Shown here one piece after another: positions 5,776 through 20,996 of a stretch of DNA of 64,000 nt. Position 1 is the first letter of the stretch; every line of letters begins with the position of its first letter. Source of the DNA: Gemmatimonadaceae bacterium (GTDB lineage: Bacteria; Gemmatimonadota; Gemmatimonadetes; Gemmatimonadales; Gemmatimonadaceae); NCBI GenBank assembly GCA_020851035.1, contig JADZDM010000005.1:248001-312000 (forward strand), given 5' to 3'. Position numbers and translations under genes: made by a program. Under the pieces are notes generated by a model, which saw only the letters and a program-made list of their open reading frames with translations, had not been told where the DNA came from and searched no databases.

Positions 5776-7034
5776 CTGCCGCACTTGCGACACCTGTCGC
5801 CCCGTCCGCCATCCCGTCATCCGTGCCGTCCGAGGGCAGTGGCGCCGACCCCGTGACGAGCAGCATTGCGTACACCTACAAGCGATTCCCCGTCACCATC
5901 GTGCGGGGCGAGGGTGTCACGCTCTATGACGATGCCGGCACGGCCTATCTCGACTGCATGTCCGGGATCGCCACCAACGCGCTCGGCTACAACGATGCCG
6001 GCGTGAATGCCGCGATCACCGAGGCGCTGCAGACGGGGCTGATCCACCTGTCGAACCTCGTGACGAACGAGCCGGCCGAGCGGCTCGCGCACTTCCTCAC
6101 CGCGCGCACCTTCGCGGACAAGGTGTTCTTCTGCAACTCCGGCGTGGAGGCGGTCGAGGGGGCGATCAAGTTCGCGCGGCGGTGGGGGCGCAGCATCGAT
6201 GCCGAGGGGGGCAAGCACGGCATCGTGTCGGTGCGCGGCAGCTTTCATGGCCGGCTCGGTGCCGCGCTGGCCGCCACCGACCGTGCGGCGTACCGCATGC
6301 CCTTCCGCCCGCTCACGCCGGGCGTGACGATCGTCGAGCGGGACCTCGACACCCTCCGGGCCGTGCTGTCCGCGGAGTCGACCGCGGCGGTGATCATCGA
6401 GCCGGTGCAGGGCGAGGGTGGCCTGCGCCCCGTGGACCACGACTTCCTGCGCGCGGTGCGTGCGCTCACGCGCGAGCGCAACATCCTGCTCATCCTGGAC
6501 GAGATCCAGTGTGGCCTGGGCCGCACCGGCTGCTTCCTCGCGCACGAGCCGATCGGCATCAAGCCGGACATCGTCACGCTGGCGAAGCCGCTGGCCGGCG
6601 GGCTGCCGATGGGCGCCATCCTGCTGACGGCGGACGTTGCGGATGCACTGAAGCCGGGAGAGCATGGCACCACCTTCGGTGGCGGCCCGCTGGTCACGCA
6701 TGTGGCGCTGCACGTCTGCCAGCGGCTGGCCGACCCGGCGTTGCTGCTCCGCGTGCGTGAGGACGGCGCGTGGTTCGGTGCCAGGCTGGCCGCGCTCAAG
6801 AGTGCACACTCGAGCGTGCGGGCCGTGCGCGGCGTGGGATTCATGTGGGGCGTGGACGTGACCGAGCCCGCCAGCGCGGTGATCGAACGGGCGCGCGCGA
6901 AGGGCCTGCTGATCATCTCGGCTGGCGACCACACGCTGCGCATCCTGCCGCCGCTGGTGGCGACGCGCGATGACCTGGATCGCGCGGTGACGCTGCTGGA
7001 GCTCGCGCTCCGGGACGTGGCACCGACCTTCTGA
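5772..7034 (+). CDS. argD: Acetylornithine aminotransferase
   Basis: PLP-dependent class III aminotransferase converting N-acetylglutamate semialdehyde to N-acetylornithine. Visible features are the phosphate-binding region FFCNSGVEAVEGAIKFARRW, the cofactor aspartate in LILDEIQCGLGRTG, and the Schiff-base lysine in TLAKPLAGGLPMGA. Its 420 residues include about 25 poorly conserved N-terminal residues rich in Pro/Ala/Ser. It overlaps argB by four bases and ends the argCBD operon. Family members also act on succinyldiaminopimelate in lysine synthesis, which is possible here. argJ, argF and argA are not in the window. Confidence 0.93.
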   Translation: MTAALATPVAPSAIPSSVPSEGSGADPVTSSIAYTYKRFPVTIVRGEGVTLYDDAGTAYLDCMSGIATNALGYNDAGVNAAITEALQTGLIHLSNLVTNEPAERLAHFLTARTFADKVFFCNSGVEAVEGAIKFARRWGRSIDAEGGKHGIVSVRGSFHGRLGAALAATDRAAYRMPFRPLTPGVTIVERDLDTLRAVLSAESTAAVIIEPVQGEGGLRPVDHDFLRAVRALTRERNILLILDEIQCGLGRTGCFLAHEPIGIKPDIVTLAKPLAGGLPMGAILLTADVADALKPGEHGTTFGGGPLVTHVALHVCQRLADPALLLRVREDGAWFGARLAALKSAHSSVRAVRGVGFMWGVDVTEPASAVIERARAKGLLIISAGDHTLRILPPLVATRDDLDRAVTLLELALRDVAPTF

Positions 7035-7081
7035 CGACAGACCGCGCCATCGGGACCCGGCGGCCCGTGTAGCTTTCCGGC

Positions 7082-8692
7082 ATGTCACCTGCCGTCACGC
7101 GTCTCTGTCACCGCGTCGCTGCCCCGGGCGTCGCCATCCTGCTCACTGCCTTCGGGGCGGCCCGCGAGGTCGTCGCGCAGCGGCCTGCGGCGAAGCCCGC
7201 GTTGATCGTGTTCCTGACGGTCGACCAGATGACGCCGGACTACTTCGCGCGATTCGGGCGCGAGCTCACCGGCGGGCTCGGGCGGCTCCAGCGTGGTGGC
7301 GTGCTGTACACGAACGGGTACCAGGATCACGCGACCACCGAGACGGCGCCGGGGCACGCGAGCACGATGTCGGGGCGCTTTCCGTCACACACCGGCATCG
7401 TGCGCAACAACGCCGGCGTGAACGATGCCACGCATCCCGTGATCGGCGGCGGGGCGCCGGGCGCGTCGCCGTTCCGGTTCCAGGGCACGACGGTCACCGA
7501 CTGGCTGGTGGCGGCGGACCCGCGGACCCGGGTGCTGTCCGTGAGCCGGAAGGACCGTGGCGCGATCCTTCCCATCGGGCGCTCGAAGCAGCCCGTGTTC
7601 TGGTACGCCAGCGACGGGCGGTTCACCACCAGCCGCTGGTATGGGGACACGCTGCCGACATGGCTGGTGCGCTTCAACGAGCGCCGGCTGCCGCATCGCA
7701 TGGCCGGCACTGCCTGGACCCTGCTCCGTCCCGCGGCGACGTATCCCGAGCCGGACAGCGTGGGCGTCGAGAGCGGTGGCCGCGACGTCACCTTCCCGCA
7801 CCGGCTGCCGTCCGACACCGTCCAGGCGCTGCGCGCGCTTCCCGATGATCCCCGGATGGACTGGCTCACGCTGCAGGCGGCGCTGGCCGGCGTGCATGCG
7901 ATGGGGCTGGGACGCGGGCCATCCACGGACCTGCTTGCCGTCTCCCTGTCCACGACCGACGCCGTCGGGCACCGGTACGGTCCCGACTCGCGCGAGATCC
8001 ATGACCAGGTGCTGCGCCTGGACCGGTCGCTGGGCGAGTTCATCGACTCGCTCTACACGCTGCGTGACTCGTCGCGCATCGTGTTCGCCCTGACGGCAGA
8101 CCACGGTGTGCAGCCGTATCCCGAGCTGCATTTCGCCGGCCAGCCCGGTGCCACGCTGCGCGTCGACCCGGCGCCCGTGATGAACGCTGCGCTGGCGGCG
8201 TTGCGCGCGCGCGGACTCGACTCCACCGCACTGGACTTCGAGTACGGCATGGTCTTCGCGGATTCCGCTGCCTTCCGGCGCGGCGGCGTGCCCCTCGATT
8301 CCGTGCTGACCGCCATGGCCGCTGCCTTCCGCCTGGTGCCCGGTGTGGCGCGCGTGGACCGCGTGCGCGACCTCGCGCGCGCAGACACCGTGCGCGACGC
8401 GATCGCACGGCGATGGATCCACGCCATTCCGCCGGCGCTGCCGGTGGTGCTGGTCGTGTCACCGAAGCCGTACGTGTACTGGGCCGGCGTGACGTACGCC
8501 ACGCACGGCACGCCGAACGACCGCGATGCACGGGTGCCGATCCTGTTCCAGGGCCCCGGGTTCGCGCGCGGGCGGCGCATCACGCGCGCCGTGCGGGTGG
8601 TGGACATGGCACCGACGCTCGCGCGGCGCGCCGGCGTGACCCCCACCGAGCGCCTCGACGGCGTCGTCCTGCGGGATGCCTTCCGGCGGTAG
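7082..8692 (+). CDS. Secreted alkaline phosphatase superfamily hydrolase (PafA-like)
   Basis: Probable periplasmic phosphomonoesterase or phosphodiesterase of the alkaline-phosphatase superfamily. The N-terminus is a signal peptide (hydrophobic stretch about 13-35). Metal ligands and nucleophile are visible: VDQMTPDYFARF (first Asp), ATTETAPGHASTMSG with the nucleophilic Thr as in PafA, a ligand region in STTDAVGHRYGPDS, TADHGVQPYPE, and ATHGTPNDRDARVPILF with the last His. Length (536) is close to PafA of Bacteroidota. It begins 47 bp after argD on the same strand but has no arginine connection. Substrate is not predictable; phosphate scavenging is the likely role. Confidence 0.85.
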   Translation: MSPAVTRLCHRVAAPGVAILLTAFGAAREVVAQRPAAKPALIVFLTVDQMTPDYFARFGRELTGGLGRLQRGGVLYTNGYQDHATTETAPGHASTMSGRFPSHTGIVRNNAGVNDATHPVIGGGAPGASPFRFQGTTVTDWLVAADPRTRVLSVSRKDRGAILPIGRSKQPVFWYASDGRFTTSRWYGDTLPTWLVRFNERRLPHRMAGTAWTLLRPAATYPEPDSVGVESGGRDVTFPHRLPSDTVQALRALPDDPRMDWLTLQAALAGVHAMGLGRGPSTDLLAVSLSTTDAVGHRYGPDSREIHDQVLRLDRSLGEFIDSLYTLRDSSRIVFALTADHGVQPYPELHFAGQPGATLRVDPAPVMNAALAALRARGLDSTALDFEYGMVFADSAAFRRGGVPLDSVLTAMAAAFRLVPGVARVDRVRDLARADTVRDAIARRWIHAIPPALPVVLVVSPKPYVYWAGVTYATHGTPNDRDARVPILFQGPGFARGRRITRAVRVVDMAPTLARRAGVTPTERLDGVVLRDAFRR

Positions 8693-8717
8693 GCCCCCGC
8701 GGACGCCGGGGACGCCG

Positions 8718-9314
8718 GTGATCCCGATCGAGCGGGCCTTCGATGCGCTCCGCTTCGGCGCGGCGCGCACGCTGAACCTCCGCGACGGGCTGCCGACGGT
8801 GGCGCAGGCGGAGAGCCGGGTGGAGGCCTGGCTTCGGCAGTGCCAGGCCGATGGTGGCGGCGATGCGCTGGTCATCACGGGGCGTGGCCTGGGCAGCCTG
8901 GATGGCGTGGGACGCGTGCGCGAGGCCGTGCTGCGGCGCTGCACGCATCTCAAGCGGCTGAACGTCGTGACGGCGGTGCGCGAACATGGACCCGGCGCGC
9001 TGGTGGTGACGGTGGCCTCGCTGCGCGCGCTCGTCGACGCACCACGCCTCCGCACCGGGCGCAAGACGCCGGTGCAGCCGGCCGGGCCGGGCGAGCTGGC
9101 TGCGCTCCCCGACGACGTCCAGGCGCTGCTGCGCGCGGTCGCCATCCTCAGCATCGAGCGGCTCGGTGTGCGTGCGCCGGCCGCGGGGATGATCGCCGAC
9201 GAGATGCGCGCACAGTTCGGTGCGATCGCCCCCGGCATCGTCGGCGCCGCCGATCCCACCGCCGCGCTGCGCGACACGGTGACGCGACTGCTGCAGGACC
9301 TGCGCGAGGAATGA
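8718..9314 (+). CDS. Smr-like domain protein
   Basis: About 198 residues. Residues 15-95 resemble the Smr domain (the C-terminal nuclease-type domain of MutS2): LNLRDGLPTVAQAESRVEAW, then ALVITGRGLGSLDG, VREAVLRRC and GPGALVVTV, the usual beta-alpha-beta-alpha-beta order. The canonical LDLHG and HGxGxG motifs are altered (LRDG, TGRGLGS), so catalytic ability is doubtful. The C-terminal 90 residues are helical and unrecognised. I chose the GTG at 8718 because GGGGA precedes it by 5 bases; an ATG at 8676 overlaps the previous gene and would add Pro/Gly-rich residues. The function is unknown; nucleic-acid binding is possible. Confidence 0.6.
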   Translation: MIPIERAFDALRFGAARTLNLRDGLPTVAQAESRVEAWLRQCQADGGGDALVITGRGLGSLDGVGRVREAVLRRCTHLKRLNVVTAVREHGPGALVVTVASLRALVDAPRLRTGRKTPVQPAGPGELAALPDDVQALLRAVAILSIERLGVRAPAAGMIADEMRAQFGAIAPGIVGAADPTAALRDTVTRLLQDLREE

Positions 9315-9393
9315 CCCCGGTGGCGGTCGCGCGACCGTCGCCTCGACACCAGTGACACCTGTCCACCGCATCCCCTTCCCCAACCCCGCCGCC

Positions 9394-11502
9394 ATGTCAC
9401 GACCATCCCGCCTCCTGCTGCTGGCCGCCGCATTGCCCGCCGCACTCGGCGCGCAGGCGCCGCTCACCGGCTACCAGGGCACCGCCGCCAGTGCCGTGCA
9501 ACGCGACCTCGAACGACGCGCCATCGCGGTGCCGTCGGCGGATTCGTCGCGCCGCATCGCGCGCGTGCTGTCGCGCGAACCGCACGTCGCCGGCACACCG
9601 GCGCAGGAGCGCACCCGCGACTACGTCAACGGTGAACTGCGCCGGCTCGGGCTGCGTGTCGAGACCCGCAGCTACCGCGTGTACCTGCCGCACGCCACCG
9701 GCGTGCAGGTGTGGCGGGTGGCGCCCGCGCCGATGGAACTGCCGGTGGACGAGCCGGCGATCGGCAGCGATCCCGTCTCGGCGCTTCCGCAGTATCCCAC
9801 CGTCAACGGCTACAGCGCGGCAGGGGACGTGACCGGTGAGGTGGTGTACGTGAACTACGGCCTGGTGGAGGACTACGCGCGGCTGGACGCGATGGGCGTG
9901 TCGGTGCGCGGGAAGGTCGTGATCGCGCGCTACGGCCGGAGCTTCCGCGGGATCAAGGCGCGCGAGGCGGAGCAGCACGGTGCGACCGCGATCCTGATCT
10001 ACAGCGATCCCGGCGACGACGGCTACGCGGCCGGGGATGTGTACCCCGAGGGCCCGATGCGCAACGCCCGCGGCGTGCAGCGCGGCAGCGTGTACAACGG
10101 CTACGGCGATCCGTCCACGCCCGGCTACGGCGCCACGGTGAACGCGCCGCGGGTGCCGGCGAGCGAGATGGCGATTCCGCACATCCCGGTGGTGCCGGTG
10201 TCGTACGGCACCGCGGCGGCGCTGCTGGAGGGGATCCGCGGCACCGGCATCCAGCAGGGCTCGGGATGGCAGGGTGGCCTGCCGTTCCGCTATCACGTCG
10301 GTCCCGGCCCCGTGCAGGCACGCGTGCGTGTCACGCTCGACGACGCGCCGTTCAAGATGATCCACAACACCATCGCGACGCTGCCCGGGCGCGCGAGCGC
10401 CGACGAGGTGATCGTGATCGGTGGGCATCGCGACGCGTGGGGGGCGGGAGCCGGCGACAACGTGAGCGGCATCACCAGCATCCTGGAGTCCGCACGCGCG
10501 GTGGTGCGCGCACTCGACGGCCGGTCGCCGGCGCGCACGCTGGTCTTCGCCACCTGGGATGCCGAGGAGTGGGGCATGCTCGGCTCGACCGAGTTCGTGG
10601 AGGACGATTCACTGCGCCTGCAGCGCGGCGGCGTGGCGTACCTGAACCTGGACGTGAGCGCGACCGGCCTCGATTTCGGCGCCGGCGGCTCGCCGTCGCT
10701 GCGGGCACTCACGCGCGAGCTGGCGCGGGAGGTGCCGGATCCGCGCGGTGCCGGCTCGATCTACGCTGCCTGGCGCGCGCGGGCGGGCGTGTCCGACTCG
10801 ACCGAGCCGGCGATGGGTGACCCCGGCGGTGGCTCCGATTTCGCGGGCTTCTACAACCACTTCGGCATTCCGCACGCCGACTGGGGCTTCGGCGGCCCGG
10901 GTGGCGTCTACCACTCGGCGTACGACTCGAACCGCTGGATGGAGCAGTTCGGCGACACCGGCTACGTGGCGCATGCCGCGGCCGCGCGGCTGGCGGCGGC
11001 GATGCTGCTCCGCCTGGCCAACGCCGACATCGTCCCATACGACTACGCGGAGTTCGGCCGCACCATGCGGCGGTACACGGACCGGACCAGCCGGCTGCTG
11101 GCGTCGATCGGGGCCGGTGACGCGGCGCCACTGGACGCGGCCTGGGTGCGGTTCACCGACCGCGCGGTGGCGTTCAACCGCACGCGTGACAGCGTGCTCG
11201 CGCGTGGCGGCGTGGCGCCGGCAGCGTTGCGCACGGCGAACGCTGCGCTGCGCCAGGTGGAACGGCGGCTGTCGCGGCCAGAGGGATTGCGGTCGCGAAA
11301 GTGGGTGCGCGGCGTGATCTACGCGGCCGACGTGGACAACGGCTACTCGACGATGATCTTCCCGACGATCGGGGAGGCGGTGCGCGCAGGGGACGCGGCG
11401 CTGGCCCGCTCGGAACTGGCCGACCTGGTGTCGCGCATCGGCACGGCGGGGGCTGCGCTGGACGAGGCGCGCAGCGCACTGGCCCCGACCGGCGGGCGGT
11501 GA
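9394..11502 (+). CDS. Secreted M28-family zinc peptidase (glutamate carboxypeptidase II-like)
   Basis: Exported zinc aminopeptidase or carboxypeptidase. With the ATG at 9394 the protein has 702 residues and begins with a signal peptide ending near ALGAQAP; the upstream GTG (9352) would spoil it. Order of parts: an N-terminal segment, a PA domain (roughly 120-270), the M28 catalytic domain with GGHRDAWGAGAGDN, WDAEEWGMLGSTE, GGGSDFAGFYNHFGIP and YHSAYDSNRW carrying the zinc ligands and catalytic Glu, and a C-terminal helical TFR-like dimerisation domain. This architecture is that of the glutamate carboxypeptidase II/transferrin-receptor group. Its role is probably extracellular peptide degradation for nutrition. 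Confidence 0.88.
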   Translation: MSRPSRLLLLAAALPAALGAQAPLTGYQGTAASAVQRDLERRAIAVPSADSSRRIARVLSREPHVAGTPAQERTRDYVNGELRRLGLRVETRSYRVYLPHATGVQVWRVAPAPMELPVDEPAIGSDPVSALPQYPTVNGYSAAGDVTGEVVYVNYGLVEDYARLDAMGVSVRGKVVIARYGRSFRGIKAREAEQHGATAILIYSDPGDDGYAAGDVYPEGPMRNARGVQRGSVYNGYGDPSTPGYGATVNAPRVPASEMAIPHIPVVPVSYGTAAALLEGIRGTGIQQGSGWQGGLPFRYHVGPGPVQARVRVTLDDAPFKMIHNTIATLPGRASADEVIVIGGHRDAWGAGAGDNVSGITSILESARAVVRALDGRSPARTLVFATWDAEEWGMLGSTEFVEDDSLRLQRGGVAYLNLDVSATGLDFGAGGSPSLRALTRELAREVPDPRGAGSIYAAWRARAGVSDSTEPAMGDPGGGSDFAGFYNHFGIPHADWGFGGPGGVYHSAYDSNRWMEQFGDTGYVAHAAAARLAAAMLLRLANADIVPYDYAEFGRTMRRYTDRTSRLLASIGAGDAAPLDAAWVRFTDRAVAFNRTRDSVLARGGVAPAALRTANAALRQVERRLSRPEGLRSRKWVRGVIYAADVDNGYSTMIFPTIGEAVRAGDAALARSELADLVSRIGTAGAALDEARSALAPTGGR

Positions 11503-11538
11503 GTCCGGGACTGTCGGTGCCGGTGCGGCACCGCCGGT

Positions 11539-12636
11539 TCAGTCGCGGCGCCGCAGGTCGTCGAGGGTGACGGGGCGTGGCGCCGGCAGGGGCGATTCCG
11601 GCGCCACGACACGATCCGCGACGGGATCGCGTCGATCACCGATGGAGACCACGCGCTCGATCGGACGCGCATGCAGGGAGGGCGACGTGGGCGGCACATG
11701 CCCTTCCATCACGGTGCGCGGGTGAGCCGCGGCCGGTCGTCCGGCAGCGCTGCCCGGTGCGACAGCGGGTGCCGCCTCGATCCGAGCCGCCTCGTGAAAC
11801 GCCACTGGTGCCGGCGCCTGGTCCCCACCTGGCGTGTCCGCACTGTGGCTGTCCTCGGTGGGACGCAGGTCAAGCCAGGCCGGCGCCTCGAAGATCGGGG
11901 AGAGCGCGCGCAGCGGTTCGATGGCGGCGATGGCAGCGCGCCCCTCCTCCGTGCCATGGGTGCCATCTGCGCCCGTGCAGACGCAGCGATACGCGCCGGC
12001 GGGATCGATCAGTGTCGGTCCACCATCGAAGAGTGCGTCTGCCACGGCCAGCAGCGGATTCTGTCTTCCGCCCAGCGTGACGACCTGCCGTCGCAGCAGG
12101 GCATCGACGAGGTCGGGGCGTGGTGCCCCGCCCGGCAGCGACAGAAAGCGACGGCGATCCGGCGGGAGGCGATCGTCGAAAACCGTGGGCTGTGACATGA
12201 GGACGATCCCACGCATCGGCAACCCGCGCAGGAACGCCTCGGGCAGCACCTGGAGGTCGATGGCGGGGTCCTGTCCCGAGGGGCAGGCACCGACGTAGGT
12301 GAGGTGCGTCACATCGGTGCGCTGCAGGCGGAGTGCGCGCGCGAGTGCCACGGGTGCCGGCGCGACGGCAACGGTGACGTCGTCGAGGTTGGCCTCTCGC
12401 TTGCAGAGTTGCGAGAGCGCGAACGGGCATGAACACTGCACGACCGGACGGCGGCCGCGAAGCTGCGCGAGTCGCAGTGTCTCGCCGGCGACGAGTTCGT
12501 CACCGAGGCTCGCCGGCACGACCGCATCGAACCCTGCTGCCAGCGCTGCGTGCAGCAGCTGGACCGGGTGCGCAGGCGCCGCCGCGAGGAACGCGTCGTT
12601 GCCGAGGATTGCGATCGAGTATGGCGGAGCGCTCAC
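11539..12636 (-). CDS. Orphan [FeFe]-hydrogenase large-subunit-like protein
   Basis: The first ~210 residues resemble the C-terminal (H-cluster) domain of iron-only hydrogenases and Nar1-type relatives: an IAILG start, a helix with ALAAGFDAVVPASLGDEL, the segment VVQCSCPFALSQLCKRE in place of the usual SSCCP motif, VAPAPVALARAL, then LTYVGACPSG where hydrogenases have GPC(M/I)AKK. Other cysteines form RCVCTG. No ferredoxin-type N-terminal domain is present and the active-site motifs are altered, so hydrogenase activity is unlikely. The last ~110 residues are Pro/Ala-rich and probably disordered. The GTG at 12636 is preferred to an in-frame TTG at 12708 because the family begins there and composition changes upstream. 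Function unknown; Fe-S binding is possible. Confidence 0.5.
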   Translation of the reverse strand: MSAPPYSIAILGNDAFLAAAPAHPVQLLHAALAAGFDAVVPASLGDELVAGETLRLAQLRGRRPVVQCSCPFALSQLCKREANLDDVTVAVAPAPVALARALRLQRTDVTHLTYVGACPSGQDPAIDLQVLPEAFLRGLPMRGIVLMSQPTVFDDRLPPDRRRFLSLPGGAPRPDLVDALLRRQVVTLGGRQNPLLAVADALFDGGPTLIDPAGAYRCVCTGADGTHGTEEGRAAIAAIEPLRALSPIFEAPAWLDLRPTEDSHSADTPGGDQAPAPVAFHEAARIEAAPAVAPGSAAGRPAAAHPRTVMEGHVPPTSPSLHARPIERVVSIGDRRDPVADRVVAPESPLPAPRPVTLDDLRRRD

Positions 12637-13099
12637 GCGAGGCGTGCCGTGGGAGGGGATTGCAGCTGGCTTACGGCTCAGATCGGTGGCAACATGCTTG
12701 CCAACCAACCTCTACCGCAAAACTGCACCACGTGCCTCGAGGCAAATGCTGTCTAACAGCATGCCCTGATTGAACTTGCATGTGTGGAGCGTCCTCGCAC
12801 GCATCGTCGCGTGGCAATGGGATACCGCGTCCGTCAGAACGGGCTGTTGCGTCGGAACCTCAAGTTTGGCACAGCCCGTCTCAGAATCTTAAAACGTCAC
12901 GGGCTGCTTTGCATTGTTAGAGACGCCTGAATATCGCGAATTGCCTCGCCAGGTGTTTTCTCGTCGTGGGGCGATGGTTTCGCAGCGCGACCGGCTAGCG
13001 TTGGGCTGGCTCCGCGACGGCACCGCGGATCCGGGTGTACCTGGCGCGCGACCGGTCAGCGCCCGCACTTCCCTTCCGGCTCAGCCCTCGATCCGCCCC
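12637..13099. other. Noncoding stretch with lower GC
   Basis: This divergent intergenic region of about 460 bases is visibly less GC-rich than the flanks, especially 12660-12960. It must carry promoters for the flanking genes. An open frame from 12914 continues into the rhodanese gene but its N-terminal part has no recognisable protein character. I see no tRNA, riboswitch or clear operator. Confidence 0.4.
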
Positions 13100-13432
13100 A
13101 TGCCCGCTCCTGCGCTCGTCGAACTGACCCCGGCCGAAGTCCGTGAGGCCATGCGCTCCCGCCCAGACGTCACGCTGGTGGACGTCCGGGAGCCCGCCGA
13201 ACATGCGATCGCGCGCATCGAAGGTGCCGTGCTGATCCCGCTTCGCACGATTCCGCAGCAGCTCGAGGCGCTGCCGCGCGACCATGAGATCATCCTCTTC
13301 TGCCACCACGGGATGCGGAGCGAGATGGCCGGACGTTTCCTGCTGGCGCAAGGCTATGCCCGGGTGGCGCACCTTCCGGGCGGGATCGATCGCTGGAGTG
13401 ACGAGGTGGACCAGGCCGTCCCGAAGTACTGA
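13100..13432 (+). CDS. Single-domain rhodanese
   Basis: A 110-residue rhodanese module, possibly a sulfurtransferase or redox-related carrier. The fold markers are LVDVREPAEHAIARI, IPLRTIPQQL and the active loop CHHGMRS, whose cysteine would carry the persulfide; PGGIDRWSDEVD closes the domain. I start at ATG 13100 because upstream residues are low-complexity and lie in the AT-richer spacer. It is followed after three bases by the esterase gene, so the two are probably cotranscribed. Physiological partner is not evident. Confidence 0.85.
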   Translation: MPAPALVELTPAEVREAMRSRPDVTLVDVREPAEHAIARIEGAVLIPLRTIPQQLEALPRDHEIILFCHHGMRSEMAGRFLLAQGYARVAHLPGGIDRWSDEVDQAVPKY

Positions 13433-13435
13433 GGC

Positions 13436-14347
13436 ATGCTGCGGGCCATCGCCGCTGGTTCCGGGACGGCCGTGATGCTGCACGCGATGCGGTATCGCTG
13501 GCTGCTGGCACGCACCCGCGCGGCGGAGTCGGCCCGCCTGCCGGTCGGATCCGATGGCATCGTGCCCGGCGCGGAACCCTTCACGCTCCCGGGCAGCGAC
13601 AGTCATGCCGCGCTGCTCGTCCACGGGTTCGGTGACACGCCTCAGACGGTGCGGCAGCTCGGTGACTACCTCAATCGCACACACGGCTGGACGGTGCGCG
13701 GCACATTGCTGCCGGGCCATGGCCGCGACCTGCGGGCGTTCGATCGGTGCGACGCGACGGCGTGGCGGACGCATGTCCATGCCGAGTACCGGCAGCTCCG
13801 TCAGCGCTACGACACCGTGGTGCTGGTCGGGTTGTCGATGGGAGGTGCCCTGACGACGATCGAGGCGGCCGCGGATCCGTCGCTGCCGGCGCTGGTGCTG
13901 CTGGTGCCGTACCTCACGCCGCCGGCCCGTGCCGAGCGACTGGCGCCGATCGCGCCGCTCATCAACCTGATGGTGCCGTACCTCAGGGGGGGCGACCGCA
14001 ACGCCTCGATCTTCGATCCTGACGCCCGGGAGCGCTCGCTGGGCGCGGGGGCATCACCTCCCCGGCGGATTGCCGATCTCGTGGCGGTGGCGCACGACGC
14101 GCGCTTTGCCGCCGCCGACGTGCAGGCACCGACGCTCCTGATCCATTCGCGCAGCGACTACCGCATCCCGGTACCGCTGGCGGAGCGGCACCCTGGCTTC
14201 TTCACGGCGGCGCGGGTCTGCGAGCAGCGCTGGATGGAGGGGAGCGGGCACGTCATCACGGTGGATTTCTGCCGCGAGACGGTGTGGGCCGAGACCGCGG
14301 CGTGGCTTGCGCGCCACGCGGGCGCGCCGCGCCATCGCACGTCCTGA
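13436..14347 (+). CDS. Alpha/beta hydrolase (esterase or monoacylglycerol lipase-like)
   Basis: A 303-residue alpha/beta-hydrolase-fold enzyme. The oxyanion region is ALLVHGFGDTPQTVR, the nucleophile elbow is GLSMGG, the acid is in SRSDYRIPVP and the base in MEGSGHVIT, giving a complete Ser-Asp-His triad in canonical order. The LLPGHGRDLRAF segment after strand 4 is typical of bacterial carboxylesterases and monoacylglycerol lipases of the Est30 type. A hydrophobic stretch near the N-terminus could be a weak membrane anchor. The start follows the rhodanese stop by three bases. Substrate not predictable. Confidence 0.8.
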   Translation: MLRAIAAGSGTAVMLHAMRYRWLLARTRAAESARLPVGSDGIVPGAEPFTLPGSDSHAALLVHGFGDTPQTVRQLGDYLNRTHGWTVRGTLLPGHGRDLRAFDRCDATAWRTHVHAEYRQLRQRYDTVVLVGLSMGGALTTIEAAADPSLPALVLLVPYLTPPARAERLAPIAPLINLMVPYLRGGDRNASIFDPDARERSLGAGASPPRRIADLVAVAHDARFAAADVQAPTLLIHSRSDYRIPVPLAERHPGFFTAARVCEQRWMEGSGHVITVDFCRETVWAETAAWLARHAGAPRHRTS

Positions 14348-14760
14348 CGGGTCACCGGATCAGCCATCTGTTGCACCGCGGCGGCCAATCGCTTGACTGA
14401 TCGGCTGTGGCACCGCGCAAGCAAGGTTGCACAACGCCATTTCAATGCTTCAGTTCGACAAACGAGCCGAGCTCTGCCACACATGAAAGCCAGAGCCCGC
14501 TGCTCTCGCGTAAACACTTGTACACAAGGCGTTTAGGCGGCAAATCGTCCGTCGGATGCGCAGGCGCAGTATGTGGCTCCGGGCAAAAACAGTACAGGTG
14601 CCGTCAAGAAATTTGGCGGACCCTGCTGCAATTGCCCATGGCATGATCCGCGATATGGAAGGGAACGCTGAGATCCGGTCGAAGTTGCCGGGTCGCCGTG
14701 GCTGGGGGCACCGGGCGGTGTCCAGCCGCGCATCCCCTTCCCGCCCGCTCTCGGACCACT
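14348..14760. other. Upstream region of the pilus locus
   Basis: About 410 bases with no convincing gene; the start and middle are less GC-rich than the average. An interrupted palindrome CTTGT-AC-ACAAG lies at 14517-14528. The 3' part (14580-14760) would be the leader of the first pilin gene. I searched it by eye for a cyclic-di-GMP riboswitch because of the pilus context and could not find the required conserved core. Confidence 0.35.
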
Positions 14761-15252
14761 ATGCGCACCGTACGATTTGCGGCCCTTGCCGCGCTCCTCG
14801 TCCCTGCCCTTGCCCAGGCCCAGTCGGCCAACGTGGCGGCAACGGCGACTGTTGTCACGCCGCTGGTGGTGACCGGCGCCGCGCCGCTCGCCTTCGGCAA
14901 TGTCTTCCAGGGCGTGAACAAGACCGTGCTGCACAGCGATGCAGCGAGCGGCCGGTTCAGCATCGCCGGCTTCGGCACCTCGCAGGTGGCGATGACCTTC
15001 ACGCTGCCGGCCTCGCTGGCCAGCGGCGCGAACACGCTGCCGATCGACAACTGGGACATCCGCAGCAATGGCACGAACGTCACCGCCGGCGCGACGGCCC
15101 TCACGGTCGTCAGCGGCACCCCGGTGAACGCCAACCTCGTGGCGAGCAACCTGTACCTGTTCGTCGGTGGCCGCGTCGTGCCGGCCGTGGCGCAGGCCGC
15201 CGGGGCATACACCGGCTCCATCGTCCTCGCAGCCGCCTACACGGGCCTCTGA
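14761..15252 (+). CDS. DUF4402 pilin-like subunit 1
   Basis: A 163-residue secreted subunit. The signal peptide ends at ALAQAQS; the mature N-terminus NVAATATVVTPLVVTG alternates hydrophobic residues like the donor strand of chaperone-usher pilins. The body is all-beta, with GFGTSQVAMTFTLPASL and a closing VGGRVVPAVAQAAGAYTGS motif typical of DUF4402. I start at ATG 14761; the in-frame extension to 14698 would destroy the signal peptide. It is about 80% identical to the next gene, implying recent tandem duplication. It is the first gene of the pilus locus. Role as structural subunit is inferred from the chaperone and usher downstream. Confidence 0.82.
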   Translation: MRTVRFAALAALLVPALAQAQSANVAATATVVTPLVVTGAAPLAFGNVFQGVNKTVLHSDAASGRFSIAGFGTSQVAMTFTLPASLASGANTLPIDNWDIRSNGTNVTAGATALTVVSGTPVNANLVASNLYLFVGGRVVPAVAQAAGAYTGSIVLAAAYTGL

Positions 15253-15263
15253 GGAGCTGAGAC

Positions 15264-15758
15264 ATGAACGCCTCGCGATTCCTCGCCACGGCGGCGGCAC
15301 TCTGTGTCGCCGGCGCCGTGCAGGCGCAGAGCGCGTCGATCCAGGCGACGGCGACGGTGGTCACACCGCTCGTCGTCACCGGAACGGCGCCGCTGGCCTT
15401 CGGGAACGTGTTCCAGGGGGTGAACAAGACCGTGCTCCACGGCGACGCGACCAGCGGCCGCCTGAGTGTCACGGGCTTCGGGACCTCGCAGGTGGCACTC
15501 ACCTTCACGCTGCCGGCGACCCTCGCCAGCGGTGCGAACACGATGCCGATCAACAACTATGACATCCGCATCAACGGCACCAACACGCCCACCGGTGCCA
15601 CGGCGCTGGCGGTCGTGAGCGGGACGCCGGTGAACGCCAACCTCGTCGCGAGCAACCTGTTCGTGTTCGTGGGCGGGCGGGTGCAGCCGACCGCCGCGCA
15701 GGCGGCCGGTGCCTACACGGGATCGATCGTCCTCGCGGCCGCCTACACGGGGCTGTGA
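15264..15758 (+). CDS. DUF4402 pilin-like subunit 2
   Basis: A 164-residue paralogue of the preceding protein, with the same signal-peptide/donor-strand/beta-sandwich plan: cleavage near AVQAQS, then SIQATATVVTPLVVTG. GAGGAG sits 7 bases before the ATG, a strong ribosome-binding site fitting an abundant subunit. It lies 11 bases downstream of subunit 1 and its stop overlaps the start of subunit 3 by one base, so the three are cotranscribed. The region VVSGTPVNANLVASN is identical to subunit 1. Whether both are major subunits cannot be told from sequence. Confidence 0.82.
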   Translation: MNASRFLATAAALCVAGAVQAQSASIQATATVVTPLVVTGTAPLAFGNVFQGVNKTVLHGDATSGRLSVTGFGTSQVALTFTLPATLASGANTMPINNYDIRINGTNTPTGATALAVVSGTPVNANLVASNLFVFVGGRVQPTAAQAAGAYTGSIVLAAAYTGL

Positions 15759-16264
15759 TGCGGCGCCCCTGGACCACCATCCGCATGGCCGCGCTGGCGG
15801 CGGCACTGCTGGTGGCAGGGACGATGCGCGCGCAGTCCGCGACGACGCAGGCGACGGCGACGGTGGTCACACCGCTCGTCGTCACCGGCATCGCACCACT
15901 CGCGTTTGGCGTCGTGTACCAGGGGGTCAGCAAGACCATCGCGAACAACGCGGCCAGCAGTGGCCGGTTGCGCGTGACGGGGTTCGGCACGTCGCAGATC
16001 CGGCTGACGGTGACGCTGCCGGCCGTGCTCACCAATGGCGCCAGCACCATGCCGATCAACCAGTACAGCGTGCGCATCAACGGGGTGAACAACATCGCCG
16101 GTGGCCAGGTCTTCTCGCTCGTGAGCGGCAACTCGCTCGTCGGGCCGCTGACGGCCGGCAATGTCTATCTCTGGGTGGGCGCACGTGTGCAGCCGTCGGC
16201 CAGCCAGGCCTTCGGTTCGTACGCCGGCTCGCTCGTCCTCACAGCTGTCTACACGGGGTTGTGA
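15758..16264 (+). CDS. DUF4402 pilin-like subunit 3
   Basis: A 168-residue third paralogue, more diverged from the first two. It has an Arg-rich N-terminus, a hydrophobic signal core, and a mature start SATTQATATVVTPLVVTG. The LWVGARVQPSASQAFGSYAGS ending keeps the DUF4402 pattern. The ATG overlaps the TGA of subunit 2 by one base. A perfect 15-bp stem-loop follows the gene (16271-16304). It may be a minor subunit or an alternative pilin. Confidence 0.8.
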   Translation: MRRPWTTIRMAALAAALLVAGTMRAQSATTQATATVVTPLVVTGIAPLAFGVVYQGVSKTIANNAASSGRLRVTGFGTSQIRLTVTLPAVLTNGASTMPINQYSVRINGVNNIAGGQVFSLVSGNSLVGPLTAGNVYLWVGARVQPSASQAFGSYAGSLVLTAVYTGL

Positions 16265-16270
16265 ATCCAC

Positions 16271-16304
16271 GCCCTGCCGCGCGCCGACGGGCGCGCGGCA
16301 GGGC
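16271..16304. terminator. Perfect stem-loop between pilin block and assembly genes
   Basis: Arms 16271-16285 and 16290-16304 (GCCCTGCCGCGCGCC and its exact complement) enclose a 4-base loop. There is no T-tract. Its position after three pilins and before the remaining genes suits an attenuator or an mRNA-stabilising hairpin that keeps pilin output above usher output. This role is inferred. Confidence 0.5.
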
Positions 16305-16336
16305 TCGCCGTCCCACATCGCTGACTACCCGCAACG

Positions 16337-16816
16337 ATGTCCAGCATGACCGCAACACTCCGCACGCTCGTCGTGGCCGGTGTCCTGTCCCTCGCGTCTC
16401 CCGCGATGGGGCAGGCACCGCTCGTCGTGACCCCGATCCAGAACCTGTCGTTCGGCGCGTTGCTGCCGAACGTCCGCACGGTGGTGGATGCACTCCAGCT
16501 CACGCGCAGCGGGCAGATCCGCGTGCAGGCCTCCATCGGCGCCGTGTTCGAGGTGCGCTACACCCTGCCGGCCGCCATGACCAGCGGCACCTCCAGCGTG
16601 CCACTCGTCTTCGGGACCAGTGCGGCCGGCGCGGCCGCATCCGGCACGCCGGCGTCGCTGCAACGTTTCAACCCGAACGTCGCCGCCCGCTTCCGGTTCG
16701 TCACCACCGACCGCGCCACGTTGTTCCTCGGCGGCGAAGCCCGCCCGCGGCTCGGCCAGGCCACCGGGACGTATTCCGCCCCGATCATCGTCACCATCAC
16801 CAACCTCGGAATCTGA
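16337..16816 (+). CDS. Fourth pilin-like secreted subunit
   Basis: A 159-residue exported protein with signal peptide ending near SPAMGQA. The mature region begins PLVVTPIQNLSFGALLPN, resembling the donor-strand and first-strand region of the DUF4402 proteins but more divergent, and ends LFLGGEARPRLGQATGTYSAP, the same closing motif. It might be a tip, adaptor or anchor subunit. The stop overlaps the chaperone ATG by one base. An alternative ATG at 16346 would shorten it by three residues. Confidence 0.72.
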   Translation: MSSMTATLRTLVVAGVLSLASPAMGQAPLVVTPIQNLSFGALLPNVRTVVDALQLTRSGQIRVQASIGAVFEVRYTLPAAMTSGTSSVPLVFGTSAAGAAASGTPASLQRFNPNVAARFRFVTTDRATLFLGGEARPRLGQATGTYSAPIIVTITNLGI

Positions 16817-17709
16817 TGCTCCGCGCCCCGTCCACCACCGAGGCCCGTGCCCGGCGCCTGCTGCGGCACCTCGCCATCGCGTGTGTCATCGCACTGCCGG
16901 TGCAGGCCCACGCCCAGGCGATCCTCGTCGCGCCGCAGGGCGTCGTCCTCAGCAACCGCGAACGCACCGGCACCGTGGAGCTGTACAACCCGTCGTCGCG
17001 CAGCGTGGAGGTGAGCCTCCGCCCGGTCTACGGACATCCCACCACCACCCCGGACGGCGACCTCACGCTGGCGATCGTCGAGCAGCCCGACAGCACCCAG
17101 CCGTCGGCCGCCGGCTTCGTGGATGCCTTCCCGCGCCGGCTCATCCTGCAACCGAACCAGCGGCAGACGGTCCGCCTGCTCGCGCGCCCGCCGCAGGGCC
17201 TGCCCGACGGCGAGTACTGGGCGCGCCTGGTCATCGCCGCGCGTGATGCCGAGGCACCGGCCACTGCCGCCAGCGACAGCAGCAGCGTCTCGGTGGGCCT
17301 GACGCTCGAGGTCCGCACCATCATCGCGGTCAACTACCGCAACGGTGCACAGCGCACGGGTGTGCAGATCGGCACCCTGTCCGCCGCCGCGACCGACGAC
17401 TCGCTGATCGTCCGCGCCCCGATGCAGCGCACCGGCACGGCCGCCTGGATCGGCACCACGACCGTCAGCCTGCGGAGTGCCAGTGGCGCCGTGGTGGCGT
17501 CGCAGGTGATGCAGACGGCGGTGTACCAGGCCATCTCGCCGCGCTTCGCCTTCGACCGTCGCGCGCTCGCGCCTGGCGCGTACCGCGTCACGATCGACAT
17601 GAACAACGACCGGCCGGATGTCACGCAGACCACGCTGCTGCGCGCGCCGGCGCAGCATGCCGAGGTGGCCGTCACGATTCCCGCGCCGGGCAGCAACGGC
17701 GGCGGGTGA
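16816..17709 (+). CDS. PapD-like periplasmic pilus chaperone
   Basis: A 297-residue exported protein: signal peptide ending ALPVQAHAQA, then an Ig-like domain with the chaperone hallmarks APQGVVLSNRERTGTVELYNPS (edge strand) and FPRRLILQPNQRQTVRLLARPP, equivalent to the PapD segment of alternating residues that caps subunits. A second beta domain covers about 170-280. It is longer than FimC/PapD and the basic anchor residues are not at obvious positions, so it belongs to an alternative chaperone class. The start overlaps the preceding stop by one base and the stop overlaps the usher ATG by one base. Partner subunits are the upstream DUF4402 proteins (inferred). Confidence 0.75.
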   Translation: MLRAPSTTEARARRLLRHLAIACVIALPVQAHAQAILVAPQGVVLSNRERTGTVELYNPSSRSVEVSLRPVYGHPTTTPDGDLTLAIVEQPDSTQPSAAGFVDAFPRRLILQPNQRQTVRLLARPPQGLPDGEYWARLVIAARDAEAPATAASDSSSVSVGLTLEVRTIIAVNYRNGAQRTGVQIGTLSAAATDDSLIVRAPMQRTGTAAWIGTTTVSLRSASGAVVASQVMQTAVYQAISPRFAFDRRALAPGAYRVTIDMNNDRPDVTQTTLLRAPAQHAEVAVTIPAPGSNGGG

Positions 17710-20700
17710 TGCGGCCGCCCCGCCGCCCCCTCGTGACACTGGCCGCTGCACTCGTCCTCTGGGCGGGTGCAGCGGTTCCGGCGTGTGCGCAGGGCGCGGT
17801 GGAGCCGACGCTGGTGGATGTGCGGCTGGGCCAGGTGGCGTCGCTCGCGCTGCGCGCGGAGCGTGCCGGTGACCGGCTCTGGCTGCCGGTGGCCGAACTG
17901 GCGGCCGGGCTCGAACTCGAGGTGGTGTCGCGCTCGGCGTCGCGCGTCGAGTTGCGTCGCTGGCCGTCGCGTGCCCTGATCGTCCTCGACCGCGACTCGG
18001 CGCTGGTGCGACTGGGGACGCGCGTGATCACGCCGCGGATCGGTGCGCTGCGGGTGCTCGATGGTGAGCTGGGCGTCGATGCCGGCACGCTGCAGGAGGT
18101 GCTGCAGGTGTCGTTCGAGGTGAGCTGGGCGGACCTGATGGTGTCGCTGCCGCAGGTCGACTCGCTGCCGATCGGTCGTCGCGTGGCGCGCGAGAAGGCG
18201 CGCGCGCAACTGAGTGCGCGTGGCGCGCAGCAGGGGGCGACCCAGTCGGTGGCCCCCCTCGCCCGCCCGCTCGCGGCCGGTGCCGTGCTCGACTACTCGC
18301 TGTCCATGCCGCTGCTGGGTGAGCGGCGCGAGCTCGGGTGGACCGCTGCGGGTGGCGTGGACGTGCTGGGCGGCTCGCTCGAGGTGAGCACCGGCGCCGT
18401 CACGGGTGGCACACGCCTGCCGACGCTCGCCTCGTGGACCGGTGTCTGGCGGGACGGCCGGAAGCTCACGCAACTGCGCCTCGGTGATGGCCTCGGTGGC
18501 GGCCCGCAGCCGCGCCTCGGCCGCGGACTGATGCTCACGAACGCCCCGTATGCGCGACCGGCGCTGTTCGGCCTGCAGACGCTGCGTGGCGACCTCCCTC
18601 CAGGCTGGACGATCGAGGCCTACCGCAACGGTGAGCTGGTGGCCGTGGACACCGTGGGACGTGGTGCGGGATACCAGCTGCAGCTGCCGGTGCTCTACGG
18701 CGAGAACCCCGTGGACCTGCTGGCGGTCGGGCCGTTCGGGCAGACGCGCGCGCTGTCGCAGAACCTGCGCATCATGTCCGACCTGCTCCCGCGGGACCGT
18801 GCGGAGTATGCGGGGAGCCTGGCCCAGTGTCGCCTGCGACAGCAGTGCCTCGCCGCCGGCACGCTCGACATGCGCGTGGGGCTCACCGAGCGATGGACGA
18901 TGCGCGTCGGCGCCGATGCACTGGCGCGTGACACCGTCGGCTGGCGGGTGGCGCCGTACCTCTCGTTCGTGGGAGCGCCGCGCCAGTCGGTGGCGGTCCA
19001 GCTGGATGCCGCGGCGCAGTCACGCACGCGCCTGGCGCTGAACATCGAGCCGTCGCAGAAGCTGCGCCTGTCGATGGAGCGGCAGTGGTTCGGCGAGGAT
19101 CCGATCGATCCGCTGCTGGCGGCGCGGCGTCTGGCGCAGACGAGCCTGTACGCGTTCTGGCGCCGGCTCGACCGCCGCCAGACGTCGGTGGAGGCGAGCC
19201 TCGACCAGACGCGCTTCATCGTCGGTGGTGCGCTGCTGCGCGCACGCATCGGGGTGGGCACGCAGAACAGCACCTGGCGCCTGCAACCGTACGTGCGGCA
19301 CGACCAGTCGTCGCGGGCCGGATTCCGCCAGACCGCGCTCGGCCTCGAGGCGACGCTGCTGCCGGACGGCAGTCGCGGCCCGTACCTCGGCGCATCACTC
19401 CTGCGACTGCTCGGTGAAGTCGATGCGCGGGGGCGTGCGATCCGCGAGGCGGTGACGCTGGCGATGCCGCTGCCCGGCGCGTTCCGCGTGGATGGTGGCG
19501 TGGCCCTGCAGCGCGGGATCCGGGGACCGATCGCAACCCTGTCGTTCTCGCGGGACCTGAACTCGCTGCGCAGCTACACCAACGCGACCATCTCGAACGG
19601 TGCGTCGTCGGTGTTGCAGAGCGTGCAGGGATCGGCGCTGGCGGCCCCGGGGTCGCGGCGTCCGCAGTTCGTGACGGGTCCATCGCTGCAGCGCACCGGC
19701 GTGACGGGGATCGTCTACCTCGATCGCAATGCGAACGGCCTGCGCGACGCCGGGGAACCGGTCGTCCCGGACGTGATGGTGCAGGTCGGCACCGGCTTCG
19801 CGCGCAGTGACGCGGATGGCCGGTACCGCGTGTGGGACCTCGTGCCGTTCGTGCCACTGCCGGTGCAGGTCGATTCGAGCTCGCTGCCCTCCCCGCTCTG
19901 GATTCCATCCGTGGCGCACGCGAGCCTCGAGGCGGGCCCGAACCGTTTCGAGCCGCTCGACATACCGCTGGTGGCGGGTGGCGTGCTCGAGGGGCGGGTC
20001 GTGTGGCGCCGCCAGGGTGGCGTATCGCTGCCACCGGTGCCGCTGCTCGTGACGAATGCGAAAGGGGCGGTGGTGGCGCGCACGGAGTCGTTCAGCGACG
20101 GGGAGTTCGTGCTCTTCGGAGTGCGTCCCGGGGTGCTGACGGTGCGTGTGGATCCGGCGTGGCTGGTGGCACAGCGCGCCGTGGCCGACTCCCAGTCGAT
20201 CACGCTCGCCGCGCAGGACGACGGAGCGATGGCCCGGCTGGCGCCGCTGACCATCGTGCAGCCGGGGCTAGAGCACGAGTGTGCCGCCGGCAGCGGCGCG
20301 GAGTGTGGCGCCCGGGATGCTGACCTGCGCGAAAGCCGGGGAGCCGAGGGCGTCGGCCTGCTCGAGGTGCACGAGCAACTCGTCCAGCGCGGAGTCACCG
20401 GCACCAAGGGGGAACGTGAGCTCGCGGTCCCGGCAGTCGTGGGCGTTCCCGAGCGTCTGTCGGCCGCGGCGTGCCGGCGCCTCACGCGCGCGCCTGGCGA
20501 GCACCGAGACTGTGCCCTGCCCGCACCCCTGCACACGGACCCGGAGCACCGGGTGTCCCGGACCGGCGAGCACGCTGACCGACTGAAGAGTGAGCGGGCG
20601 TCCCTGAACCGTGGCGGTGGCCGCGACCGAGCCCTGCTGGGCGCCGGCGGTGCCGGGCGTTCCCGCGAACAGCAGGAGCGCAAGGCACGCAGACGCGCCG

Positions 20701-20996
20701 TGACGGCACAGGGGGAGCGGCATGTGCGGAAGTCTCGACAGCGGGACGGCTGTGCACGAGGCTCGCTGCGTCGCGGCGCTTCCGATGCCGGGCCGGGAGC
20801 CCGTGAGGGGAACTGTACTGTCCGGTCCGCTACACCGGCAAGACCCGGCCGAGTTCGACTGCCTGCACCGGCCCGCGCCGCGCCCCGGCGTGGCGTGCCC
20901 AGCCCGCAGTCCGTCGCCGGGGGGCGTCGCCCCTCCATGGCCGAGCGCAAGATCCAGCGCCGTCGCCTCCGCGTCGCCGCCGTCAAGTCGCGCTGA
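17709..20996 (+). CDS. Usher-like outer-membrane protein with SdrD/Cna-B-like domain; 3' end anomalous
   Basis: A large exported protein: signal peptide ending VPACAQG, an N-terminal domain (about 30-180), a long region of barrel-like strands with a plug-like segment LFGLQTLRGDLPPGWTIEAYRNGELV and ENPVDLLAVGPFGQ (an arrangement seen in TcfC/CS1-type ushers), then GIVYLDRNANGLRDAGEPV, a SdrD/Cna-B-like beta domain, and another beta domain. Recognisable protein ends at about 20270 with LTIVQPG. The frame then stays open to 20996, but that part is Arg-rich and antisense to another credible gene. One fewer G in the GGGG before CTAG (20265-20271) would give an immediate stop, so a frameshift or lost stop is likely. 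Confidence 0.7.
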   Translation: MRPPRRPLVTLAAALVLWAGAAVPACAQGAVEPTLVDVRLGQVASLALRAERAGDRLWLPVAELAAGLELEVVSRSASRVELRRWPSRALIVLDRDSALVRLGTRVITPRIGALRVLDGELGVDAGTLQEVLQVSFEVSWADLMVSLPQVDSLPIGRRVAREKARAQLSARGAQQGATQSVAPLARPLAAGAVLDYSLSMPLLGERRELGWTAAGGVDVLGGSLEVSTGAVTGGTRLPTLASWTGVWRDGRKLTQLRLGDGLGGGPQPRLGRGLMLTNAPYARPALFGLQTLRGDLPPGWTIEAYRNGELVAVDTVGRGAGYQLQLPVLYGENPVDLLAVGPFGQTRALSQNLRIMSDLLPRDRAEYAGSLAQCRLRQQCLAAGTLDMRVGLTERWTMRVGADALARDTVGWRVAPYLSFVGAPRQSVAVQLDAAAQSRTRLALNIEPSQKLRLSMERQWFGEDPIDPLLAARRLAQTSLYAFWRRLDRRQTSVEASLDQTRFIVGGALLRARIGVGTQNSTWRLQPYVRHDQSSRAGFRQTALGLEATLLPDGSRGPYLGASLLRLLGEVDARGRAIREAVTLAMPLPGAFRVDGGVALQRGIRGPIATLSFSRDLNSLRSYTNATISNGASSVLQSVQGSALAAPGSRRPQFVTGPSLQRTGVTGIVYLDRNANGLRDAGEPVVPDVMVQVGTGFARSDADGRYRVWDLVPFVPLPVQVDSSSLPSPLWIPSVAHASLEAGPNRFEPLDIPLVAGGVLEGRVVWRRQGGVSLPPVPLLVTNAKGAVVARTESFSDGEFVLFGVRPGVLTVRVDPAWLVAQRAVADSQSITLAAQDDGAMARLAPLTIVQPGLEHECAAGSGAECGARDADLRESRGAEGVGLLEVHEQLVQRGVTGTKGERELAVPAVVGVPERLSAAACRRLTRAPGEHRDCALPAPLHTDPEHRVSRTGEHADRLKSERASLNRGGGRDRALLGAGGAGRSREQQERKARRRAVTAQGERHVRKSRQRDGCARGSLRRGASDAGPGAREGNCTVRSATPARPGRVRLPAPARAAPRRGVPSPQSVAGGRRPSMAERKIQRRRLRVAAVKSR
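20268..20723 (-). CDS. Secreted pilin-related protein, convergent with the usher gene
   Basis: A 151-residue protein with a clear signal peptide (CRHGASACLALLLFAG, cleavage near TAGAQQ). The mature N-terminus GSVAATATVQGRPLTL resembles the donor-strand region of the DUF4402 subunits (NVAATATVV), so it is probably a further subunit of the same system. Three cysteines lie in the middle (GCGQG, HDCRDRE). The TAG stop shares CTAG with the presumed stop of the usher gene on the other strand. The ATG at 20723 is chosen because residues upstream are not protein-like. Confidence 0.6.
   Translation of the reverse strand: MPLPLCRHGASACLALLLFAGTPGTAGAQQGSVAATATVQGRPLTLQSVSVLAGPGHPVLRVRVQGCGQGTVSVLARRAREAPARRGRQTLGNAHDCRDRELTFPLGAGDSALDELLVHLEQADALGSPAFAQVSIPGATLRAAAGGTLVL

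Follow-up and report, generated by a model that had tools for sequence, protein, structure and literature searches.

Results

Gene organization of the locus

We analyzed 64 kb of DNA from a Gemmatimonadaceae bacterium (assembly GCA_020851035.1), hereafter the window, which is part of contig C5 (591 kb) in a genome of 4.97 Mb and 34 contigs. Its plus strand carries, in this order, three genes for secreted proteins of the DUF4402 family (pilA, pilB and pilC), a fourth whose product resembles the family weakly (pilD), and genes for a divergent chaperone and an outer-membrane usher. We conclude with considerable confidence that these genes form a chaperone-usher operon assembling a thin, non-covalent surface fiber by donor-strand exchange. 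A preliminary description of this DNA had proposed a chaperone-usher pilus with DUF4402 subunits, and an open reading frame (ORF) check found all of the genes that it described at or adjacent to the coordinates that it gave. The features are as follows.

14761..15252, plus strand: pilA, secreted DUF4402 pilin with a putative N-terminal donor-strand extension; mature start QSANVAATATVV; from ORF, translation and DUF4402 score (22.6 bits)
15264..15758, plus strand: pilB, secreted DUF4402 pilin with a putative donor-strand extension; mature start QSASIQATATVV
15758..16264, plus strand: pilC, secreted DUF4402 pilin with a putative donor-strand extension; mature start QSATTQATATVV; fold from a tandem model
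16337..16816, plus strand: pilD, DUF4402-like subunit without N-terminal extension, proposed tip (first-exported) subunit; mature QAPLVVTPIQNLSFG; fold from the tandem model
16816..17709, plus strand: periplasmic pilus chaperone, PapD-like, very divergent; homologues in the phylum, PapD_N in some relatives
17709..20267, plus strand: outer-membrane usher; AlphaFold2 model with FimD/PapC matches; end point taken from relatives
20268..20996, plus strand: read-through tail of the usher ORF, 242 codons, probably not usher; absent from all relatives; codon-position GC content
20268..20723, minus strand: secreted protein of 151 residues, convergent with the usher gene, of uncertain membership in the system; from ORF and profile comparison

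The genes overlap as tightly as had been described, with TGATG sequences at three junctions (pilB/pilC, pilD/chaperone and chaperone/usher). By eye, signal peptides are clear on the four pilins and the chaperone, and there is no cysteine in the mature pilins or the mature chaperone of the window. A scan for promoters and terminators found nothing. The closest named relatives are metagenome-assembled genomes (MAGs) of Gemmatimonadota, the nearest being a Gemmatimonadaceae MAG with an usher 73% identical to that of the window, and relatives keep the order pilin, pilD, chaperone, (pilin), usher.

DUF4402 pilins

Taken singly, pilA, pilB and pilC score 22.6, 24.5 and 24.2 bits against DUF4402, all below the curated cut-off of 25.2, and pilD scores a weak 14.4 bits; pilA and pilB are 79% identical to each other. 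Homology to DUF4402 is not in doubt at the sequence level, because 40 of the 41 aligned pilins, drawn from approximately 20 related operons, match the family (best E 8e-9). The earlier proposal of three DUF4402 pilins plus a fourth pilin-like protein is thus borne out. That the subunits lack disulfides holds for the window but not for the family, in which 31 of 125 parsed mature pilins contain cysteine.

To model the fold we used the fact that pilC and pilD share a reading frame with two TGA codons between them, and for this purpose only we translated the stops as glycine; the alignment of pilin-pilD tandems had 17 rows, with 16 relatives permitting the same read-through. A first pilin-pilD alignment had been discarded in favor of this one, and a pilin-stop-chaperone read (L040), intended for chaperone-subunit modelling, was discarded when its alignment laid chaperones over the pilin. 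The tandem model (predicted local distance difference test, pLDDT, 80.9; predicted template modelling score, pTM, 0.64) shows two confident beta-sandwich domains, mostly above 90, and a 12-residue strand at residues 25-36 that corresponds to the pilC extension. Its best structural matches are CfaE, FimG, CsuA/B, CupE, PapE, FimA and other pilus subunits at Z of about 7-9, the first three at about 8.5-9; no single match exceeds that of the CfaE pilin domain, which at Z 9.0 ties with others. Predicted fold and sequence pattern together indicate subunits with an incomplete immunoglobulin-like (Ig-like) pilin fold and an N-terminal donor-strand extension.

At Z 7-9 the tandem model also matches archaeal cannula subunits and the Thermus protein TTHA1873 (9h8b, 9bab and 7wwo), which may point to a broader group of fiber-forming proteins that share this fold. 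In one relative (L052 2105-3019, the same as L079 4395-5309) a pilin without its last strand is joined in frame to the signal peptide of a pilD gene, through either a deletion or an assembly collapse.

The usher

The product of the gene at 17709 was modelled with AlphaFold2 from a 35-row alignment (pLDDT 87.1, pTM 0.71). The model comprises a signal peptide, an N-terminal domain (approximately residues 30-150), a barrel (189-645), a plug (approximately 278-364) and two C-terminal domains. Counted on the DSSP line, the barrel has 6 + 18 = 24 strands, and the plug is an insert of about 85 residues between strands 6 and 7. The FimD and PapC ushers have a 24-strand barrel with a plug at this same place. 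FimD and PapC fill Foldseek ranks 1-17 for the model (best E 1.5e-26), and VIA-align gives Z 21-22 on barrel and plug (355-360 residues, 4.8 Å) and reaches the last C-terminal domain, covering 611 residues with the C-terminal domains included. The predicted protein thus has the barrel, plug and C-terminal domains of an usher. The preliminary description had staked its proposal beforehand on a barrel and plug in this protein, and both are present in the model; its further statement that the usher lacks an obvious PapC/FimD layout is contradicted by the same model. Its assignment of an usher-like barrel with an SdrD/Cna-B-like domain agrees with the 24-strand model and with the C-terminal domains, which score as SdrD_B-like and CarboxypepD_reg-like.

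Sequence comparisons see far less of this protein. Pfam Usher is matched by two of 21 aligned ushers (0.0014), searches of PDB sequences with profiles from the chaperone, pilin and usher alignments gave matches only at the Cna-B/SdrD-like domains, and hhalign against E. coli FimD gave a non-significant E of 0.12, with the correct diagonal at the LGDG motif of the barrel (here and below, hhalign values are from single-pair comparisons). One could suppose, then, that the gene at 17709 encodes some unrelated barrel that carries Cna-B-like domains, and that the DUF4402 proteins belong independently to the surface or matrix, as the missing Pfam usher match and the NCBI name of its homologues, "carboxypeptidase regulatory-like domain-containing protein", might suggest. 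We regard this as highly improbable: the fold is that of FimD and PapC with the plug in its canonical place, the Foldseek result strongly disfavors it, and DUF4402 and the chaperone co-occur fully across genomes (see below).

Cysteines C374 and C380 of the usher (about 18828-18848 of the window), in the turn that links barrel strand 7 to strand 8, are invariant in 35 ushers and probably form a surface-exposed disulfide loop.

The chaperone

Pfam and NCBIfam searches with the single window proteins returned no PapD match and no usher match. Among relatives, PapD_N is matched by three of 20 aligned chaperones (best 2.5e-4), and two homologous chaperones encoded on Pseudomonadota plasmids exceed the PapD_N cut-off. 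By homology, the protein would be a periplasmic two-domain chaperone of the PapD-like type that had been proposed. Comparison by hhalign with E. coli FimC (E 0.19) and EcpB (E 0.08) was not significant; a result with another alignment (A9) was left unused since that alignment itself contains FimC and EcpB. In the chaperone alignment, EYWxR is invariant in what is likely strand F1, as are a Tyr and an Arg in domain 2. In the archaic chaperone CsuC the carboxylate anchor consists of an Arg in strand F1 and a Tyr and an Arg in domain 2 (PMC4654587).

Putative donor-strand extensions and a candidate tip subunit

The distance from the mature start to an LxFG motif is approximately 22-24 residues in pilA, pilB and pilC and 11 in pilD. 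This difference recurs across 44 fully parsed non-redundant operons, where the distance is bimodal (7-17 versus 19-30 residues) and exactly one short, extension-less subunit is present in 39. Of the five operons that break the rule as parsed, L038, L094, L095 and L101 suggest wrong cleavage or motif calls, and L105 is unexplained. The short subunit is normally encoded just upstream of the chaperone gene, but downstream of it in a few operons (L040, L065), and the rule therefore follows the operon and not the gene position. Counted from the motif, positions -20 to -12 of the long subunits show alternating hydrophobic residues (fractions 0.47, 0.68, 0.75, 0.78 and 0.89, with 0.25-0.47 at the intervening positions). 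The extension, alternately hydrophobic and polar over about five pockets, looks as a donor strand should.

Where subunits join by donor-strand exchange, a single one per operon without an extension is what would mark the tip, and we propose pilD for this role from its missing extension. Both L104 and the second such operon of the same genome (L025) encode a protein in which a domain lacking the extension precedes a donor-like linker and another DUF4402 domain; this reads as a tip with a built-in donor strand. The near-strict rule should allow the tip to be named from sequence alone and provides a simple test of how a chaperone-usher fiber is initiated without a lectin-type adhesin.

Distribution in Gemmatimonadota and beyond

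An usher search matched 43 of 99 relatives, the weakest matches spanning only the Cna-B-like part. Among 298 Gemmatimonadota genomes, the chaperone profile finds 60 and DUF4402 finds 51, all of them among the 60 (Fisher p about 1e-48, a value that overstates independence because the genomes are related). PF00577, the Pfam usher family, is found in two of the 298, only one of which exceeds the cut-off. This genome carries a true archaic operon (L116; G128:C1:3702500-3715500, 4107-7821) in which the SCPU pilin, the PapD_N chaperone and the Usher each exceed the respective cut-off. Current annotation thus overlooks a chaperone-usher system present in about one-fifth of the Gemmatimonadota genomes sampled, of which many come from uncultured bacteria.

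The second, distant operon of the same genome (L025; G000:C6:80001-98000, 6271-12655) encodes two divergently transcribed DUF4402 pilins, a chaperone, an usher and the two-domain tip-like protein. Directly after it lies a 974-residue ORF (12567-15491) with PKD, Big_1 and Laminin_G_3 domains, possibly an adhesin.

Homologous operons occur on five Pseudomonadota plasmids, from Polaromonas, Sphingopyxis, Pseudoalteromonas and Novosphingobium. The four that are annotated keep the order DUF4402, chaperone and "carboxypeptidase regulatory-like" protein; a plasmid search with pilB as query gave no match. The suggestion that this is an undescribed system in this phylum must accordingly be amended, since it is not limited to the phylum. 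Its other half stands provisionally: "DUF4402" was not found in the open-licence literature, subscription journals being outside the scope of that search. PMC4793230, which mentions both Gemmatimonadota and the chaperone-usher pathway, left the pathway out and did not display the phylum. These proteins would give DUF4402 a likely function as a pilus subunit, and the "carboxypeptidase regulatory-like" proteins one as outer-membrane ushers. The chief value of the system lies in its spread across phyla and in its invisibility to standard annotation.

Relationship to known chaperone-usher classes

The usher shares with those of classical systems (type 1 Fim, P/Pap) the 24-strand barrel, the plug between strands 6 and 7 and the two C-terminal domains, and the subunits fit the FimG/PapA fold. 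In contrast, sequence identity is approximately 12-13%, the operon has no two-domain lectin adhesin, and hhalign gives no significant similarity of the chaperone to FimC. Likeness to the alternative (alpha) systems, CFA/I and ECP, lies in the tied top match of the subunit to the CfaE pilin domain, whereas hhalign gives no significant similarity of the chaperone to EcpB and the window operon lacks a large two-domain minor pilin.

Among known classes, the archaic (sigma) one, represented by Csu and CupE, comes closest. Not only does the subunit fold match CsuA/B and CupE, but the profiles of all three components align with those of the archaic operon L116: the pilin profile over its whole length with the SCPU pilin (E 2.5e-6), the chaperone at 4.7e-5 and 6.3e-4, and the usher at 2.2e-6 (the 4.7e-5 and 2.2e-6 values come from profiles that include Pseudomonadota relatives). 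These are much better than the values for E. coli FimC, EcpB and FimD (0.19, 0.08 and 0.12). SCPU is moreover touched, below threshold, by six of the 41 pilins. It is possible on these grounds that we are looking at a divergent archaic system, of the class of Csu pili, with no separate branch, although we would hold to this only tentatively. Across members PF00577 almost never detects the usher, the pilins belong to DUF4402 and those of the window have no cysteine, the proposed tip is a single pilin-like, extension-less domain, and the C-terminal domains of the usher score as SdrD_B and CarboxypepD_reg. We do not file the system as archaic because the window pilins match DUF4402 and not SCPU (PF05229), which has no match in the genome, and because the window usher falls below the PF00577 cut-off that L116 passes.

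All three components also have homologues in the Pseudomonadota plasmid operons, with E of 3e-61 to 8e-82 for the usher, 5e-18 to 2e-23 for the chaperone and 5e-5 to 2e-12 for the pilins, and the gene order is the same where annotated. These operons differ in low sequence identity and in a chaperone motif that reads GEYR in four of five (AEFR in Pseudoalteromonas) versus GEYW in Gemmatimonadota, and they are not described as pili except for the label of one chaperone. On balance, we lean toward a separate, cross-phylum branch of chaperone-usher systems that belongs to none of the classical, alternative and archaic classes. Such a branch would be the principal chaperone-usher system of Gemmatimonadota, with a DUF4402 shaft, a single-domain, pilin-like tip that differs only in having no donor strand, and an usher, missed by standard models, whose C-terminal domains are Cna-B/SdrD-like.

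A model for fiber assembly

The preliminary proposal of a chaperone-usher fiber with DUF4402 subunits finds independent support for each of its three component types: the usher has the FimD/PapC fold, the pilin fold matches pilus subunits, the extensions show the expected pattern, DUF4402 and the chaperone co-occur, and the profiles resemble those of an archaic operon. Subunits and chaperone would enter the periplasm by the signal peptides seen in their sequences. There the PapD-like chaperone, to judge from its family, would lend a strand to each DUF4402 subunit, whose Ig-like fold is incomplete, and loaded chaperones would dock at the usher, predicted to be a 24-strand barrel closed by a plug. 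PilD, left by its missing extension able to receive but not to give a strand, would be exported first and form the tip. PilA, PilB and PilC would then add at the base, each with its extension in the groove of the subunit ahead, and polymerize into the shaft. Attachment or biofilm formation is a likely use. In this soil-type bacterium the principle is that of E. coli pili, with parts too different for standard databases to recognize the pore or the building blocks.

Several observations weigh against this model. Archaeal cannula proteins score as high as pilins against the tandem model, and the subunit fold alone is thus not decisive. The structural alignments of the usher begin at about residue 182 and leave out the predicted N-terminal domain (approximately 30-150), which in FimD binds the chaperone. 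The calls of donor-strand extensions depend on a regular expression for the signal cleavage site, and complementation between subunits, the other point on which the preliminary description had staked its proposal, is supported by a sequence pattern only. Finally, a receptor-binding adhesin domain is absent from the window operon.

An alternative is that chaperone and usher secrete a coat that is not fibrillar, such as a Caf1-type polyadhesin or capsule-like layer, and make no discrete pili. In its favor are the lack of an adhesin domain at the tip, the small number of subunit types and one pilin that touches Caf1 at E 0.06; flexible coats of the Caf1 type are likewise built by donor-strand chemistry. 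However, three distinct yet similar shaft subunits with a dedicated extension-less subunit are organized like a tipped fiber, and we consider a coat unlikely.

The 3′ end of the usher gene and the convergent gene

The usher ORF is open to 20996 (1095 residues), whereas the ushers of relatives end approximately 850 residues in, equivalent to about 20267 of the window. The last 242 codons, which have no counterpart in any aligned relative, run antisense to the secreted-protein gene at 20723-20268, and codon-position GC over 20271-20720 favors the antisense frame. These codons are probably not usher sequence; that they might encode a new usher domain was rejected, since no relative has the tail. 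The stop of the convergent gene shares a CTAG with a TAG at 20269-20271 that lies in the +1 frame, and one base fewer in the GGGG at approximately 20263 would close the usher frame at this TAG, the extra base being either real or an assembly error. This suggests a one-base frame change near the GGGG, or else a lost stop or a recent overlap of the convergent genes.

The convergent gene had been described as encoding a fifth secreted protein with a pilin-like mature N-terminus. The N-terminus does look like a pilin donor strand, but the resemblance to the pilin profile is confined to the signal peptide and the first 20 or so mature residues. The body is not pilin-like, a full fifth pilin is unsupported beyond signal peptide and extension, and membership in the system is uncertain. 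The protein, which has conserved cysteines, was found in only one other member of the genus (L026 5636-6079, plus strand), and it could be a capping or anchoring subunit.

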